Source: a virus. From it: 33,480 nt of DNA. Positions 1,817-32,380 of the stretch are shown here, piece by piece. The position numbers and the translations under genes are program-made. Location of the stretch: IMG/VR virus record IMGVR_UViG_3300005841_000066, positions 1 through 33,480 of that record, one strand, 5' to 3'. The notes beneath the pieces are model-generated. The model saw only the letters and a list, made by a program, of their open reading frames with translations. It was not told where the DNA came from and searched no databases. Each line of letters starts with the position of its first letter. The first letter of the stretch is position 1.

Positions 1817-2997
1817 CGATCCCGGATGATCGGCGCCGCGATGCCGTGACCCGCTACGCGACCGACGTCGTCGCGCGGCAGATCGTCGCCGGGCGGAAAG
1901 TCCGCCTCGCGTGCGCGCGCCATCTCGACGACCTCGCGCACCAAACAGAGAAGGGGTTGCTCTGGGACGCGGCTGAGGCGCAGGAAGCGATCGATTTTTT
2001 CCCGACGTGCCTCTGCCTCCCGGAAGAAACCGACGCCGACGAGGACGTCGAAGCTTCGGACGATGTCAGCCCGGAGCACGGCACGCCGTTCGTCCTCTCG
2101 CCGCACCAGCAATTCATCGTGGGCAGCCTCCTGGGCTGGTTCTCGGTCCGCGTCAGTAAGAAGACCGGCGCGCGGCGCGTGCAGCAACGCTTCCGGATCG
2201 CGTTTTACCAGGGCGGGAAGGGCGACGGGAAGACGCCGCTCTTTGCCGGACTCCTGCTTCTCATGTTGGTCCGGCACGGCGTGCGAGGCGCGCAGCTGTT
2301 TTGTGCGGCCGTGACGAAAGAGCAGGCCAAAATCGCCTTCACCGACTGCGTGAAAATGGTCGAGGCCTCGCCGGCGTTGCAGAAACTGATCACGCACACC
2401 GGCAACAACCTCGCGGTCAAATCGACCGGCTCGTTCATTCGACCGATCTCCGCGGAGAAGCGCGGCCTCGACGGGAAGCGCGTCCAGGGCGCCGTCGTCG
2501 ACGAAATCCACGAAGCCCCCAGCAACGTCGTGTTGGTGAAACTGCGCGCCGGGATTAAGGGCCGGCCGAACGCGCTCATCATGATTCCCACCAACGCGGG
2601 CTTTGATCGGGAGACGGTGTGCTGGGAACTGGTCGAGTACTCGCGGCAGATCCTGGAGGGCACGCTCGTCAATGAGACTTTTTTTGCGTACGTGTGCGGA
2701 CTCGACGCCTGCGATCGCTGCCACGCCGCCGGCAAGCTCCAACCCTCCGACGATTGCCCGGACTGCGACGATTGGAAGGTTGAGGGTCCCCATTGGCTCA
2801 AGTCCGTGCCGAACCTCGGCGTTTCGCTGCCGTGGGAATACATGCGCGAGCAAGTCCGCGAGGCGATCGCGATCCCCTCGCTGCGGAATATGGTGCGGCG
2901 CTTGAATTTCTGCCAGTGGACCCAGCAGGCCACGGTCTGGATCACGGCGGAGCAGTGGGCCGCGTGTGCGTGTGACGCGCGGGAGGTCGCCGCATGA
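1813..2997 (+). CDS. Terminase large subunit, ATPase half
   Basis: A 394-residue protein carrying only the packaging motor of an HK97-type large terminase. The Walker A-like loop GGKGDGKT is at about residues 134-141, and the Walker B segment GAVVDEIHE places its Asp-Glu at 230-231. LIMIPTNAG is a plausible coupling motif. A cysteine-rich patch near 300-325 (CGLDACDRCH and CPDCDD) could bind zinc. It stops just after WITAEQW, which in intact family members is followed by the nuclease domain; here that domain is encoded by the next gene, starting within the stop codon (ATGA). The motor would hydrolyse ATP to drive DNA into the prohead. Confidence 0.85.
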   Translation: MTIPDDRRRDAVTRYATDVVARQIVAGRKVRLACARHLDDLAHQTEKGLLWDAAEAQEAIDFFPTCLCLPEETDADEDVEASDDVSPEHGTPFVLSPHQQFIVGSLLGWFSVRVSKKTGARRVQQRFRIAFYQGGKGDGKTPLFAGLLLLMLVRHGVRGAQLFCAAVTKEQAKIAFTDCVKMVEASPALQKLITHTGNNLAVKSTGSFIRPISAEKRGLDGKRVQGAVVDEIHEAPSNVVLVKLRAGIKGRPNALIMIPTNAGFDRETVCWELVEYSRQILEGTLVNETFFAYVCGLDACDRCHAAGKLQPSDDCPDCDDWKVEGPHWLKSVPNLGVSLPWEYMREQVREAIAIPSLRNMVRRLNFCQWTQQATVWITAEQWAACACDAREVAA

Positions 2998-3788
2998 TCA
3001 CGCGGCGCGGATTCATCGGCCTCCTCGGTGTGGCGGTGGCGGCGACGTTGTCGCCGGACGCGTTTCATACGTCGCTGCTCGGGCGGGAGTGTTTCCTCGG
3101 CATCGACCTCTCTGACAAAATCGATCTCTCGGCGGTCGTCGCTGTCTTCCCCCGCGCGATCGCGCGCGAGGATCGAGGCGAGGCGGCCGTCGAGAGCCTC
3201 GCCGACCCCACGAACCAGCCGACGATCGACCGCGCGATCGACGTGCGGCCGTTTTTTTGGATGCCTGAGAAGACGCTGGCGCGGCGGGCGCAGGAGGACA
3301 AAATCCCCTATCCCGACTGGGCGCGGGATGGCTACGTCTTCACAACCCCTGGCAGTCTCATCGACCACGACGCGATCGTGGAATTCATCATCAGTGGGCT
3401 CGCCGTGGACTACAAGATCCGCGGCATTGGCATCGACCAGGCGGGCGCGGCGGGCGTGGTCTCCAAGCTTCAGCGCCACTTCGGGGACGAGCTCGTCAAA
3501 GAAATCCCGCAAGGGTTCCGCCGGTTGTCGGAGCCGTCGAAGCTACTCGAAGCGCTCATCGTCACCAACAACCTGACGCACGACGGGAACCCCTGCCTGG
3601 CGTGGTGCATGGGGAATATGGGCACCGAGGAGAACGCCTGGCGCGAGATCCGGCCGGTGAAACTCAACCAGCGGAAACGGATTGACGGCGGCGTGGCGCT
3701 GGTGGACGCACTCGCGCAGATGACGGCGACGCCGGCGGCGCAACGCTCGGTGTATGCGACACGAGGAGTACGCACGCTTGGCGATTGA
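2994..3788 (+). CDS. Terminase large subunit, nuclease half, with Tat-like N-terminus
   Basis: A 264-residue protein corresponding to the RNase H-like nuclease domain of the large terminase. Three acidic residues expected to hold the metals are present: Asp38 in FLGIDLS, Asp148 in GIGIDQAG and Asp238 in ALVDAL. The first 25 residues do not resemble a terminase linker. They read MITRRGFIGLLG followed by a hydrophobic stretch ending near SPDAF, which fits a twin-arginine signal motif. The upstream continuation of this frame meets a stop at 2973, so it is not simply fused to the ATPase frame; the four-base overlap implies coupled translation. The two halves probably act as one packaging enzyme. 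Whether the leader is functional is unknown. Confidence 0.8.
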   Translation: MITRRGFIGLLGVAVAATLSPDAFHTSLLGRECFLGIDLSDKIDLSAVVAVFPRAIAREDRGEAAVESLADPTNQPTIDRAIDVRPFFWMPEKTLARRAQEDKIPYPDWARDGYVFTTPGSLIDHDAIVEFIISGLAVDYKIRGIGIDQAGAAGVVSKLQRHFGDELVKEIPQGFRRLSEPSKLLEALIVTNNLTHDGNPCLAWCMGNMGTEENAWREIRPVKLNQRKRIDGGVALVDALAQMTATPAAQRSVYATRGVRTLGD

Positions 3789-27229: not shown

Positions 27230-27718
27230 ATGGATGAAGTCGATCGACAGTGGATCCAGCGGCGGATCGCGGTGATCCCGCGGGGCAACAACATCTCCTA
27301 CGTGATTGCGGTCATCGTGATGGCCAGCATTGGGATCCTGGCGGTCGCCGCGATCGCCATCCTCCGGCCCGAGAAGGACAATGCGGGCCTGTATCTCACC
27401 ATCGGGGGCTTCATTGCCACCACGACCGCCTCCGTCCTGGGGTTCATGAAGTCCGACGACACGCACAAGAGCGTCAACGGGCGCCTCGAAGAATTTCTCA
27501 ATGCGAGCGTGGTGGCCGCGCACGCGTCCGGCCTCGCGGCGGGGCGCCAGGCGGGGCGCGTGGCGGCCAACGCCCGCACCGATGCCCTCGCCGCCGCCGC
27601 CAGCCCGACGCCCGCGCCCGCGGCCCCCTCGTATACCGCCGCGTTCGCGGAGAGCCTGTCGAACATCGACGCCCACACCCGGGCGATCGAAAAGAACACC
27701 AACCCGGAGAAGGGCTGA
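27230..27718 (+). CDS. Holin-like membrane protein
   Basis: A 162-residue protein with two membrane segments: ISYVIAVIVMASIGILAVAA and, after a short charged turn (RPEKDN), LYLTIGGFIATTTASVLGFM. The remaining 90 residues are charged and Ala-rich, likely helical in the cytoplasm. Proteins with the phrase DTHKSVNGRLEEF after two membrane helices are common next to phage lysis genes, and a pore-forming role is likely though not proven. It is the first gene after the tail module and precedes a run of secreted or membrane proteins. Confidence 0.65.
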   Translation: MDEVDRQWIQRRIAVIPRGNNISYVIAVIVMASIGILAVAAIAILRPEKDNAGLYLTIGGFIATTTASVLGFMKSDDTHKSVNGRLEEFLNASVVAAHASGLAAGRQAGRVAANARTDALAAAASPTPAPAAPSYTAAFAESLSNIDAHTRAIEKNTNPEKG

Positions 27719-27724
27719 CCCCGC

Positions 27725-27868
27725 ATGGACCTCCTGATCGTGGTCTTGATCGTCGTCTGGCTGACCGGCGCCGGCCTCGCCATCGGCGGCAACACGATCC
27801 ATCTCCTCGGCGTGATCGTGCTGGTCCTTGTCGCGGTGCGCCTGGTGCAAGGGCGGGAGCTGCGATGA
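27725..27868 (+). CDS. 47-residue membrane protein resembling lmo0937/DUF5670 proteins
   Basis: A very short protein with two hydrophobic segments separated by a Gly-rich turn: LLIVVLIVVWLTGAGLAIGG and HLLGVIVLVLVAVRLVQGRE. This layout, with the ending V-R-L-V-Q-G-R, is that of the tiny bacterial lmo0937 family of membrane proteins of unknown function. It starts six bases after the holin-like gene and its stop overlaps the next ATG (ATGA). It may be a small holin partner or antiholin, which is inference. It was identified by translating the interval directly. Confidence 0.7.
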   Translation: MDLLIVVLIVVWLTGAGLAIGGNTIHLLGVIVLVLVAVRLVQGRELR

Positions 27869-28389
27869 CAAGACGCGTGGCCGCCCTCGTCGCGCTTGGT
27901 GTGCTTGGTGGCTTCGTGGGGCCGGCGCAGGCGCAAGTCGGCACCGAGCCGACCGCGTGGGCGCCCGAACATCGCGCCCTCGCCGGCCGACTCGGGGATG
28001 CCGCCGTCGTGGGGCAAGCCGCCGGCGCCGGGTGGACGGCGTACCAGGCGTGGCGTGCCGGCGATCACAAGGTGGCCTACCGCACCGGCTGCAGCCTCCT
28101 CGTCGCGCTGGCGACGACCGAGACGACCAAACGCCTCACGCATGAATGGCGGCCCGATGGCAGCGATCAACTCTCGCAACCCTCGGGACATTCCGCCGCG
28201 CTGGCCGCGTTGAGCGGCTGGAACTATTCCTTCGGGATTTCGATCGGGGTCTTTGGTGGGCTCTCGCGCGCGAACGCGAACAAACACCACTTGTGGAACA
28301 AGCAGCTCCTCTCCGACATTCCGCTCGGCTGGGGCATCGGCGCGCTCTCGCAGGCGGGCTGTCGGGCGCTGATTCGGGGTAACCCATGA
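27865..28389 (+). CDS. Secreted PAP2-type phosphatase, altered third motif
   Basis: A 174-residue protein. Residues 1-23 form a Sec signal peptide (RR start, hydrophobic core, cleavage likely after AQA). The PAP2 motifs are recognisable: motif 1 K-x6-RP at 89-97, PSGH at 106-109, and SR-x5-H at 134-141. In the third motif the partner Asp should follow the His after three residues. Here Asn145 stands there, and a later SD at 150-151 leads into the usual IPLGWGIG helix, as if about six residues were inserted. PAP2 enzymes remove phosphate from lipid phosphates such as undecaprenyl pyrophosphate. It may be active or degenerate. Confidence 0.7.
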   Translation: MTRRVAALVALGVLGGFVGPAQAQVGTEPTAWAPEHRALAGRLGDAAVVGQAAGAGWTAYQAWRAGDHKVAYRTGCSLLVALATTETTKRLTHEWRPDGSDQLSQPSGHSAALAALSGWNYSFGISIGVFGGLSRANANKHHLWNKQLLSDIPLGWGIGALSQAGCRALIRGNP

Positions 28390-28739
28390 TGATGGTGAAA
28401 GCGACGCGCGAAGGATTGGGCGGGAAGCAGACGTCGTCCGGCTATCTGGTTGATCCGATCGTGCCGTTCGTCGCGCTGCCGGATACCGCGGCCCTCCGGC
28501 AACGCGTCCGGGTGATCAATCCGCAGAACGGGAAATCGATCGAGGCGATCGTGCTCGACGTCGGCCCGTGGAACGAACACGACCATGCGTATGTCTTCGG
28601 CGGGCACCGGCCGGCCGCGGAAACCGGGATCGACACGCGCGGCCGCAAGACCAACGGCGCCGGCATCGACCTCGGCGAACGCGTGTGGGCGGCGCTCGAG
28701 ATGACCGGCAACGACCAGGTGTGGTGGGAGTTCATCTGA
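28386..28739 (+). CDS. Double-psi beta-barrel protein, RlpA-like
   Basis: A 117-residue single-domain protein. VLDVGPW with Asp58 and NGAGIDLGERVWAAL with Asp95 match the two signature segments of RlpA-type double-psi barrels (DRGPF and IDLS in the bacterial enzymes), which cleave denuded peptidoglycan strands. It lacks a signal peptide, so it would need a holin to reach the cell wall. Three ATG codons in a row begin the gene; the first overlaps the previous stop (ATGA). It is the best candidate for a wall-degrading enzyme in the cassette, since no standard endolysin was seen. Activity is inferred. Confidence 0.65.
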   Translation: MMMVKATREGLGGKQTSSGYLVDPIVPFVALPDTAALRQRVRVINPQNGKSIEAIVLDVGPWNEHDHAYVFGGHRPAAETGIDTRGRKTNGAGIDLGERVWAALEMTGNDQVWWEFI

Positions 28740-29326
28740 TGGGGGTGCCGAATCGACTGACCGACGTCCGCGCGCTCTGCGCCCAGCATCCGGAGGCCTT
28801 TCCCGCCGGCGAGGGCAACGATGCCGCACGGCTCCGCTTTCTCCAGACGATCCTCATTCCGGCGTTGAACCGGATCGACGATGGCGACTGGGGCTATATG
28901 ACCAAGACGGATCAGCACGACAAGGTGCCGTGTGATGTGCTGATATGGCGGCCGACGAACGCGGTGATTGATTGCCTGACGGGGACGGGCGCCTGTTGGA
29001 TCGCCCATGCGCCGCCGCCGCCCGAATGGATCTGGACCGCCGTCGAGCCGTTCGTCGCGCCGCCCGATCCTCCGCCGGCCGACGAGAGCCTCCCCGTGTA
29101 CTGGGGGCAGCTGGCCTGGATCGGCACGCTCGTGCCGCAGCCGCCCGGGCTCGTCGTGCTGATCAACGCGATCGGGGAAGTGGCGTCCCTCCAACCCGAT
29201 GGCCGTCTCGAATGGCGCCCGCCGGGCACGGTCGGCGCGTACGAGTTGGCGCGGCGCGTGGGGCCGAATCTCCTGCGATATGAGGGGACGGGCGCGGTGT
29301 ATGACCTGGCCGTGCAGAGCCGCTAA
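28739..29326 (+). CDS. Hypothetical protein with trefoil-like C-terminal module
   Basis: A 195-residue protein starting in a TGATG overlap. The first 90 residues contain DKVPCDVLIWRPTNAVIDCL, a pattern seen in phage proteins of unknown function encoded near lysis genes. After a proline-rich linker, residues about 135-195 form a beta-rich unit ending in VGPNLLRYEGTGAVYDLAVQ. The same unit makes up most of the next gene product. Such short G-x-x-L-R-Y repeats recall beta-trefoil or fascin-like binding modules, so ligand binding is possible. Confidence 0.6.
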   Translation: MGVPNRLTDVRALCAQHPEAFPAGEGNDAARLRFLQTILIPALNRIDDGDWGYMTKTDQHDKVPCDVLIWRPTNAVIDCLTGTGACWIAHAPPPPEWIWTAVEPFVAPPDPPPADESLPVYWGQLAWIGTLVPQPPGLVVLINAIGEVASLQPDGRLEWRPPGTVGAYELARRVGPNLLRYEGTGAVYDLAVQSR

Positions 29327-29328
29327 TC

Positions 29329-29616
29329 ATGGCCCCTGACCGCAAGGCTGCGCGCCCCGACGTCGCCCGGACGATCAGTCCCGTCGTGTATCGCCCGGAG
29401 ACGTTGCGCTTCACAGAAGGGACGGTCGTCCCGATCGGTGACGCGTGGGTCGCGTTGCAGCACACAGACGGCTGGTTCGTCAGTGTCGATCCGGAGGGGC
29501 GGGTGGGCACGTGCGACACGATCGGCCCGCGCGAACGGGCGACGCGGATCGGCGGCACCTTGCTGCGCTATGCGGAGACGGGCACGGACTACTACATTGT
29601 GGTACAGGCGCGGTGA
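29329..29616 (+). CDS. Small beta-rich protein paralogous to upstream C-terminus
   Basis: A 95-residue protein that starts two bases after the previous stop. Its region from WVALQHTDGWFVSVDPEGRV to the end (IGGTLLRYAETGTDYYIVVQ) aligns along its length with the C-terminal 58 residues of the upstream protein. It is therefore a stand-alone copy of that module. No catalytic residues are obvious. Two related modules from neighbouring genes could assemble together or bind the same sugar or peptide. This is inference. Confidence 0.6.
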   Translation: MAPDRKAARPDVARTISPVVYRPETLRFTEGTVVPIGDAWVALQHTDGWFVSVDPEGRVGTCDTIGPRERATRIGGTLLRYAETGTDYYIVVQAR

Positions 29617-29822: not shown

Positions 29823-30134
29823 TCAGGAGGCCTTCGCGATCGGCTTGATCGAGCCCGCCTCGCCGCTGCTCTTCCGGTCGCGCTGCGCGTGCCATAGATC
29901 CCAGCCCGCCTGCAGGTTCATCCAAAATTCCGGGGAGACCGTGAACAGTTCCGACAGCCGGAGCGCGGTATCCGGCGTCATGCCGCGCTTCCCCTTGATC
30001 AACTCGTTCAGCCGGTTCACCGGCATTTTCAGCCGGCGGGCGACGTCGGCCTGCGACAACTGCAGCGGCTTGAGGAACTCCTCGAGCAGCATCACGCCCG
30101 GGTGGGTGGGCGGTCGATTCTTGGGCAGGGTCAT
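29823..30134 (-). CDS. higA: Antitoxin HigA
   Basis: A 103-residue HigA-type antitoxin. The start PPTHPGVMLLEEFLKPL is diagnostic of the family, followed by a helix-turn-helix (LSQADVARRLKMPVNRLNEL) and the FTVSPEFWMNLQAGWDLW segment. HigA neutralises HigB and represses its own operon by binding a palindromic operator. The gene is second in the operon and its ATG overlaps the higB stop (ATGA on the minus strand). The order toxin first, antitoxin second, is normal for higBA. Confidence 0.95.
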   Translation of the reverse strand: MTLPKNRPPTHPGVMLLEEFLKPLQLSQADVARRLKMPVNRLNELIKGKRGMTPDTALRLSELFTVSPEFWMNLQAGWDLWHAQRDRKSSGEAGSIKPIAKAS

Positions 30135-30424
30135 CAGTGGTAATCCCCGCAGCGCACGTCGTAGGCGTGGCCGCTCGCGAACCGAAAGATCAGCCGATAT
30201 TGGCGATTCACCCGAATACTGAACTGGCCGGCGAGATCGCGCGTGAGCGCTTCCAACTGGTTGCCCGGCACGTGCCGTAGATCCTCAAGATTCGGCGCGG
30301 CGTCCAGCGCGTCCAGCTTCCGACGGACCACCGGCCAAATCGCCTTCGGGATGCGCCGTGCGGCCTTGCTGTCGACGTCATCGTAGATGTCTTTCGTGGT
30401 GGCATCCGCGAAAGACTGAATCAC
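30134..30424 (-). CDS. higB: mRNA-interferase toxin HigB
   Basis: A 96-residue RelE-superfamily toxin of HigB type, which cleaves mRNA on the ribosome. The start MIQSFADATTKDIYD, the middle RRKLDALDAAPNLEDLRHVPG and the end NRQYRLIFRFASGHAYDVRC-GDYH follow the family closely. It begins with GTG at 30424. A strong promoter candidate lies so close that transcription would begin at about this codon, so the mRNA may be leaderless. In a phage such a pair can favour prophage maintenance or block competing phages. Confidence 0.93.
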   Translation of the reverse strand: MIQSFADATTKDIYDDVDSKAARRIPKAIWPVVRRKLDALDAAPNLEDLRHVPGNQLEALTRDLAGQFSIRVNRQYRLIFRFASGHAYDVRCGDYH

Positions 30425-31827: not shown

Positions 31828-32109
31828 ATGCAGGAACACTTGAAGCTGCTGGGGTTTCGCGTACGCGATGCGGTGACCGGCTTCGAGGGCGTGGTGGAGT
31901 CGGTCTCGTTCGATCTCTACGGCTGCGTCCAGGCGATCGTCAGGCCTGGGTTGGATGAGAAGGGACTCCCGCAGGATGGCCGCTGGTTCGACTTGAAGCG
32001 ACTGACAGCGACGGCGCCGGGCGACGGGCCCGTGATGGCCGTCCCGACGTTTGTGGTGGTGGCGGGTGGCGCCGAGAAGCCGGCATTTCCGTCGCCCCCC
32101 CTGCCATAG
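31828..32109 (+). CDS. Conserved phage protein of unknown function
   Basis: A 93-residue protein with the familiar phrase [20 protein letters not shown] followed by [20 protein letters not shown] and RWFDLKRL. This pattern occurs in many prophages and phages, with no assigned role. It looks like a small beta barrel. It stands ten bases behind the HNH gene but may have its own promoter. The Pro-rich end (PAFPSPPLP) is probably flexible. Confidence 0.75.
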
Positions 32110-32112
32110 CGG

Positions 32113-32118
32113 TACACT
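32113..32118 (+). promoter_or_regulatory. Possible -10 box, TACACT
   Basis: The sequence GGTACACT precedes the GTG at 32129 by ten bases. The same eight bases stand before the ATG at 33093. No good -35 box is visible. A near-leaderless transcript would result. Confidence 0.35.
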
Positions 32119-32128
32119 ACCCCGTGAC

Positions 32129-32380
32129 GTGATCCCCCGATCCACCGGCACGTCGGCCCTGCAGTGCCCGCATTGTCAGCAACAGGCCGGATCCGACGTC
32201 ACCGATAGCCGGGCCTCCGCGGACTACATTCGCCGCCGCCGCACTTGTGGCGCCTGCCAGCGGCGGTTCACCACCTACGAACTGATCGTCGATCCCCTGG
32301 TCTTTGAGCGCCAGCGTGGCCGCGCGAAAGCGGTCGCGGCCCAACTCCGGGAGATGGCCAGCACGTTAGAGGTGTGGTGA
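32129..32380 (+). CDS. Stand-alone NrdR-like zinc-ribbon protein
   Basis: An 83-residue protein with the DNA-binding zinc ribbon of the repressor NrdR: CPHC, then TDSRAS, then RRRRTCGAC and RRFTTYE. In NrdR this ribbon is followed by an ATP-cone domain of about 90 residues; here only a short basic helix follows ([14 protein letters not shown]). It may bind NrdR-like boxes of the host or phage without nucleotide control, or compete with host NrdR. The GTG at 32129 is used because upstream codons cross the -10-like box. Confidence 0.8.

Follow-up and report, generated by a model that had tools for sequence, protein, structure and literature searches.

Phage lysis is usually described as the work of holins, endolysins and spanins, and a gene for a secreted protein with phosphatase motifs in the middle of a lysis operon raises the question of what this protein is and what it might do there. 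The locus lies in IMG/VR virus record IMGVR_UViG_3300005841_000066, of which positions 1 to 33,480 (33,480 nucleotides, hereafter the window) were analyzed. A previous sequence-only reading described a secreted PAP2-type phosphatase with a displaced catalytic Asp, encoded between holin-like and wall-enzyme-like genes. The genes concerned are the following.

27230–27718, + strand: 162-residue membrane protein, holin-like by position, with predicted transmembrane (TM) segments at about residues 18–49 and 52–74.
27725–27868, + strand: 47-residue two-TM protein of the DUF5670 / lmo0937 family; an ATGA contains both its stop codon and the PAP2 start codon.
27865–28389, + strand: PAP2-derived protein of 174 residues, predicted to be exported, recognized from the open reading frame (ORF), a sequence profile and the fold match of its model.
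28386–28739, + strand: 117-residue RlpA/DPBB-like wall-associated protein; an ATGA overlap links its start codon to the end of the PAP2 gene.

The ORF at 27865–28389 is real, on the + strand, and its 174 residues match those described earlier; its third-position GC of 0.81 fits a coding frame, given a genome GC content of 66.8%. Secretion, also claimed in that reading, is borne out by a predicted Sec-type signal peptide spanning approximately residues 1–23, with a hydrophobic stretch at 5–23 and AQA/Q cleavage, which gives a predicted mature protein of about 151 residues. The N-terminus alone exceeds the hydropathy threshold.

The window protein descends from PAP2 phosphatases, to judge by its sequence. 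A profile built from eight independent bacterial and viral PAP2 proteins, with the window protein and its closest relative excluded, scores it at 45.0 bits (E 6.9e-13), and the best of 1,000 shuffles reaches E 1.7. The Pfam PAP2 model (PF01569) gives 12.8 bits, under the gathering cut-off of 27.2, and 17.3 bits for the relative. A tblastn search retrieved secreted Bacteroidota PAP2 proteins that have an RPDGS-S-PSGH block in common with the window protein, and single-protein searches of INPHARED phages, IMG/VR patterns and PDB sequences returned no matches. An AlphaFold2 model computed from a seven-sequence alignment (pLDDT 68, pTM 0.61) places helices at residues 34–64, 68–92, 108–117, 121–137 and 147–170. 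The best 21 structural matches of this model, which depends on the PAP2 rows in its alignment, all belong to the PAP2 superfamily, led by LpxE (6ebu; Z 13.0, rmsd 3.8 over 135 residues) and followed by G6PC1 (Z 11.9), YodM (11.3), PgpB (10.4) and LPP1 (10.1), with vanadium haloperoxidases and PhoN at Z of about 8. A control model of the two phage proteins alone was poor (pLDDT 51.5), matched nothing coherent and did not retrieve PAP2; the fold evidence thus leans on the alignment, and the sequence profile is the main evidence.

A survey of 2.9 million viral contigs turned up a single close relative. This protein, at positions 3232–3744 of IMGVR_UViG_3300009101_000010 (L017), is 43% identical to the window protein over 170 residues. 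A degenerate DNA scan for RPDGx(D/N)-PS(G/E)H recovered only L017 and one more contig, L031, which was rejected as a chance match because no PAP2 ORF was seen in it. At BLASTP E<=1e-3, the ORFs common to both phages are PAP2 and an NrdR-like zinc ribbon only. The zinc-ribbon protein (window 32084–32380; L017 8005–8244) is 59% identical between the two. The catalytic elements of the window protein, all on the + strand, are arranged as follows.

28129–28155, +: C1 motif K89-x6-R96-P97 (KRLTHEWRP); K, R and P are the same in L017.
28180–28191, +: C2 motif PSGH (residues 106–109); PSEH in L017.
28264–28290, +: first part of C3, S134R135-ANANK-H141-H142; SRANAN(K/R)HH in the pair, with K/R the sole difference from L017.
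28291–28311, +: loop 143–149 (LWNKQLL) with Asn145 at +4, the site of an insertion of ~6 residues according to profile and pairwise alignments.
28315–28317, +: Asp151, corresponding to the catalytic Asp of C3 and predicted to lie in the opening turns of the last helix (147–170).

The KX6RP, PSGH and SRX5H elements are therefore intact (K89-x6-R96P97, P106SGH109 and S134R135-x5-H141), as previously described, and this motif string was never produced in 200,000 shufflings of the sequence and has a single occurrence across all six reading frames of the window. The same reading noted that the position four residues after His141 holds Asn145 in place of Asp, and that the next SD follows further on; both observations stand, with S150-D151 lying so that the Asp is ten residues past His141 and six past Asn145. 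The canonical HX3D of C3 is replaced by HX9D. The intervening region reads SRANANRHHFVRDVLPAYALGAGVQAGC in L017 and SRANANKHHLWNKQLLSDIPLGWGIGALSQAGC in the window protein, and the two align without gaps on both flanks of the insertion; both His and Asp are therefore retained, five residues further apart in the window protein. Relative to canonical relatives, the profile gives six extra residues. The earlier claim of a displaced Asp is right: by these alignments the Asp is kept and pushed out by an insertion of 5–6 residues rather than substituted. Two early alignments preferred a different register, in which W-NKQ147-LLSD corresponds to NNKHWLSD and the nucleophile is lost to Gln147; this register was rejected on the evidence of L017, whose SRANANRHH and Asp are in register on both sides. 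A tandem duplication of 18 bp (NKHHLW/NKQLLS) as the source of the inserted residues is not supported: 11 of 18 bases are identical, a level matched by 5% of the gene's adjacent in-frame 18-mers.

The two phage proteins depart from the canonical pattern in other ways. The stretch from PSGH to SR measures 24 residues in the window protein and 25 in L017, compared with 32–41 in eight canonical relatives. The C3 motif of L017 is SR-x5-H-x4-D, or SR-x6-H-x3-D if the second His is the nucleophile, and the HH doublet is present in both proteins. Motif residues are identical in 10 of 11 cases between the pair, versus 41% of the other mature positions (P about 8e-4). Because HX3D is absent and the Pfam score falls under its cut-off, the window protein is not filed as a canonical PAP2 phosphatase; it is a divergent PAP2-derived protein.

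The position of the gene was the other part of the earlier proposal. The order in the window is a tail gene, the 162-residue two-TM protein, the 47-residue DUF5670 protein, PAP2 and the DPBB-like protein, separated by short gaps or overlaps. The PAP2 gene is co-directional with both neighbors and overlaps each of them at an ATGA, which supports a lysis-operon location, as does the adjacent SleB endolysin in L017. No promoter-like sites were detected within 26.8–30.0 kb, and no relatives of the upstream tail protein were found. The 162-residue protein matches a protein of the L017 cassette (31% over 84 residues, E 7e-5 in a single comparison), with an RP(E/D)KDN stretch in common. The 47-residue protein scores 27.0 bits against one family model (cut-off 23.5) and 26.7 bits against the other (cut-off 30). 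The RlpA match of the 117-residue protein is weak (E 0.22); its DPBB-like domain recurs in eleven other viral loci (L006–L016), standalone or fused to Amidase_3, occurrences that support a wall role. The domain stands alone in the window (28386–28739) and follows an Amidase_3 domain in L012–L015. No PAP2 gene occurs near the DPBB gene in L006–L016, so PAP2 is not a general partner of the DPBB protein.

The earlier reading suggested looking for the same synteny; in L017, PAP2 also lies in a lysis cassette, beside a SleB-type gene. The order there is a receiver-domain two-TM protein, small ORFs, the SleB-type hydrolase (Pfam Hydrolase_2, E 4e-17; endolysin in PHROGs) and PAP2. In the first of these, at L017 1511–2389, a holin-like stretch with two TM segments is joined to a response-regulator receiver domain (Pfam E 1.4e-13); the two-TM stretch is the part similar to the 162-residue window protein. 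Since the PAP2 gene also neighbors a SleB endolysin in a second phage, its location goes beyond coincidence. The structural genes of the two phages are unrelated, yet the gene keeps its place in the lysis cassette, which points to a role there. The suggestion that PAP2 sits where spanins usually lie is only loosely right: the gene precedes a wall-enzyme-like gene, and a simple regular-expression scan of both strands of the window detected no ORF with the lipobox typical of an o-spanin or u-spanin. The PAP2-derived protein itself lacks the spanin lipobox and has the Sec cleavage site instead. The lack of a lipobox ORF fits a spanin-less phage or a one-membrane host; no spanin and no known substitute were found in about 13% of surveyed phage genomes (PMC6139136). 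By position, the protein looks like a divergent exported component of a phage lysis operon. A lysis function is a good hypothesis based on that position.

Other features of the window were recorded alongside. The terminase large subunit is encoded by two overlapping ORFs (1813–2997 and 2994–3788) split inside the nuclease domain, the second of which starts with MITRRGFIGLLGVAVAATL, Tat-signal-like in appearance. The neighboring genes at 28739–29323 and 29329–29616 have a common C-terminal domain (40% over 67 residues) that resembles a duplicated module. A HigBA-like toxin-antitoxin pair (29823–30134 and 30134–30424) lies on the - strand, in the opposite orientation.

Whether such a protein could be an active enzyme can be judged against characterized PAP2 phosphatases. 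In E. coli PgpB, G162D abolishes activity in vivo and in vitro, D211A leaves about 0.1%, and H207A is inactive and binds phosphate more tightly (PMC7413402). A simple active-phosphatase reading is weakened by these mutants, since L017 has PSEH at the position where PgpB G162D is dead and loss of the Asp leaves PgpB D211A nearly inactive. Activity is favored by the conservation of the motif residues between the window protein and L017, and there is a precedent for activity without a canonical Asp: H. pylori LpxE lacks it but still complements the loss of C55-PP phosphatase in E. coli (PMC6581854). In LpxE, part of the active site comes from the N-terminus of the last helix, and a hydrogen bond joins the Asp to the His (PMC6581854). 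The predicted place of Asp151, at the start of its last helix, resembles this arrangement. Phosphatase activity has about even odds in the window protein and a lower probability in L017. As to the consequence once proposed, conversion of undecaprenyl pyrophosphate to the monophosphate is normal recycling and alone would not impair wall synthesis; for that, the remaining phosphate would have to be removed too, or the lipid sequestered.

The explanation that we tentatively prefer, at a little under an even chance, is a compact, Sec-exported derivative of the secreted PAP2 branch whose pocket binds an envelope lipid phosphate, most likely hydrolyzing it, and which serves as an accessory factor of the lysis operon. 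Its ancestry would lie among the secreted members of the PAP2 lipid/acid phosphatase superfamily, and the lysis operon would supply it late in the infection. In the periplasm, a pocket of Lys89, Arg96, Ser107, His109, Arg135, His141/142 and Asp151 would bind the phosphate group, most likely on a lipid of the envelope, with undecaprenyl (pyro)phosphate and lipid A as examples. Hydrolysis would most likely be retained, perhaps slow, with Asp151 delivered by the enlarged His-Asp loop, and the protein would act as an accessory envelope factor beside the holin-like and wall-enzyme-like proteins. Export is predicted; activity, substrate and lysis role are what we infer.

The strongest competitor, possible but somewhat less likely, is a pseudo-phosphatase whose pocket binds lipid phosphate without turnover, for example on lipid II or undecaprenyl pyrophosphate, and so sequesters the carrier or anchors lysis proteins. 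The catalytic pattern departs differently in the two phages, by the His-Asp insertion in the window protein and by the G to E change of PSGH in L017; in PgpB, mutation of these elements removes all or nearly all activity, with H207A binding phosphate more tightly (PMC7413402), and both proteins have the shortened PSGH-SR stretch. However, both proteins keep the Asp, the nucleophile His and the His of PSGH, none of which mere binding would require. A moron or lysogenic-conversion gene, an ordinary phosphatase that happens to sit in a late operon and may confer bacitracin tolerance, phosphate scavenging or a surface change against other phages, is improbable: secreted PAP2 genes are also found on plasmids of bacteria and, away from lysis cassettes, in other phages, and the window also contains the HigBA pair, but the gene overlaps both neighbors by four bases without a promoter-like site of its own and has the same cassette place in a second phage whose structural genes are unrelated, and no integrase was recognized among the genes tested. 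An unrelated protein with chance motifs, or a mis-registered motif with the nucleophile lost, is very improbable given the profile E-value, the shuffles and the L017 register, even with a Pfam score under threshold and the first two alignments placing NKQ147LLSD on NNKHWLSD.

More broadly, some phages without recognizable spanins could have recruited secreted PAP2 proteins as a new class of lysis effector that attacks or seizes envelope lipids at the end of infection, the targets of which may be the undecaprenyl carrier or lipid A; this broader proposal is speculative and, on balance, unlikely. If a PAP2-derived protein is fixed in the lysis operons of two otherwise unrelated phages, an envelope-lipid step would be added to lysis. 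The window protein is also a natural test of how much separation between His and Asp a PAP2 protein tolerates before catalysis fails. PAP2 genes in phages as such are already known, from Campylobacter phages. The earlier remark that a PAP2 lysis role is not established agrees with an open-literature search, which found no report of PAP2 in a lysis cassette, an absence that is no proof; in a spanin survey, both mentions of ‘PAP2’ are the name of a phage.

Among known systems, the L017 protein is the nearest counterpart. It has a signal peptide, the VGTEPxAWxPEHR start, SRANAN(K/R)HH with the Asp in register, the short PSGH-SR stretch and the lysis-cassette position in common with the window protein, and differs in having PSEH for PSGH and five fewer residues from His to Asp. 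The secreted Bacteroidota PAP2 proteins (Chitinophaga L001, Hymenobacter and Spirosoma plasmids) likewise have a signal peptide and an RPDGS(D/N)-xx-S-x-PSGH block, with up to 63% identity over 35 residues; in contrast, they have a canonical R-X5-H-X3-D, 35–36 residues between PSGH and SR, and a chromosomal or plasmid context. The lipid A 1-phosphatase LpxE (6ebu) and YodM/PgpB (5jki, 8bm3), which are among the best structural matches to the model of the window protein, have the same tripartite KX6RP / PSGH / SRX5H pattern, whereas they are integral membrane enzymes with HX3D and 13–17% identity. Other phage PAP2 proteins (L018, L022, L023; Campylobacter phages CP220/CPt10) are, like the window protein, phage-encoded and small, and the L018 type has a signal peptide only; those of L018, L022 and L023 have the canonical motif and lie outside a lysis cassette. 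Their genes form the order calcineurin-like phosphoesterase, small secreted PAP2, glycosyltransferase-like gene (L018 4936–6923, L022 3066–5564, L023 2838–5174), with a GT4 glycosyltransferase confirmed in L022 and L023, possibly a lipid or surface-modification cassette. LysB of mycobacteriophages has a fold unrelated to PAP2. LysB-type accessory enzymes (PMC5707550) offer the functional parallel, an extra envelope-directed protein in the lysis cassette, but LysB is an esterase that acts on mycolyl-arabinogalactan, an unrelated substrate.
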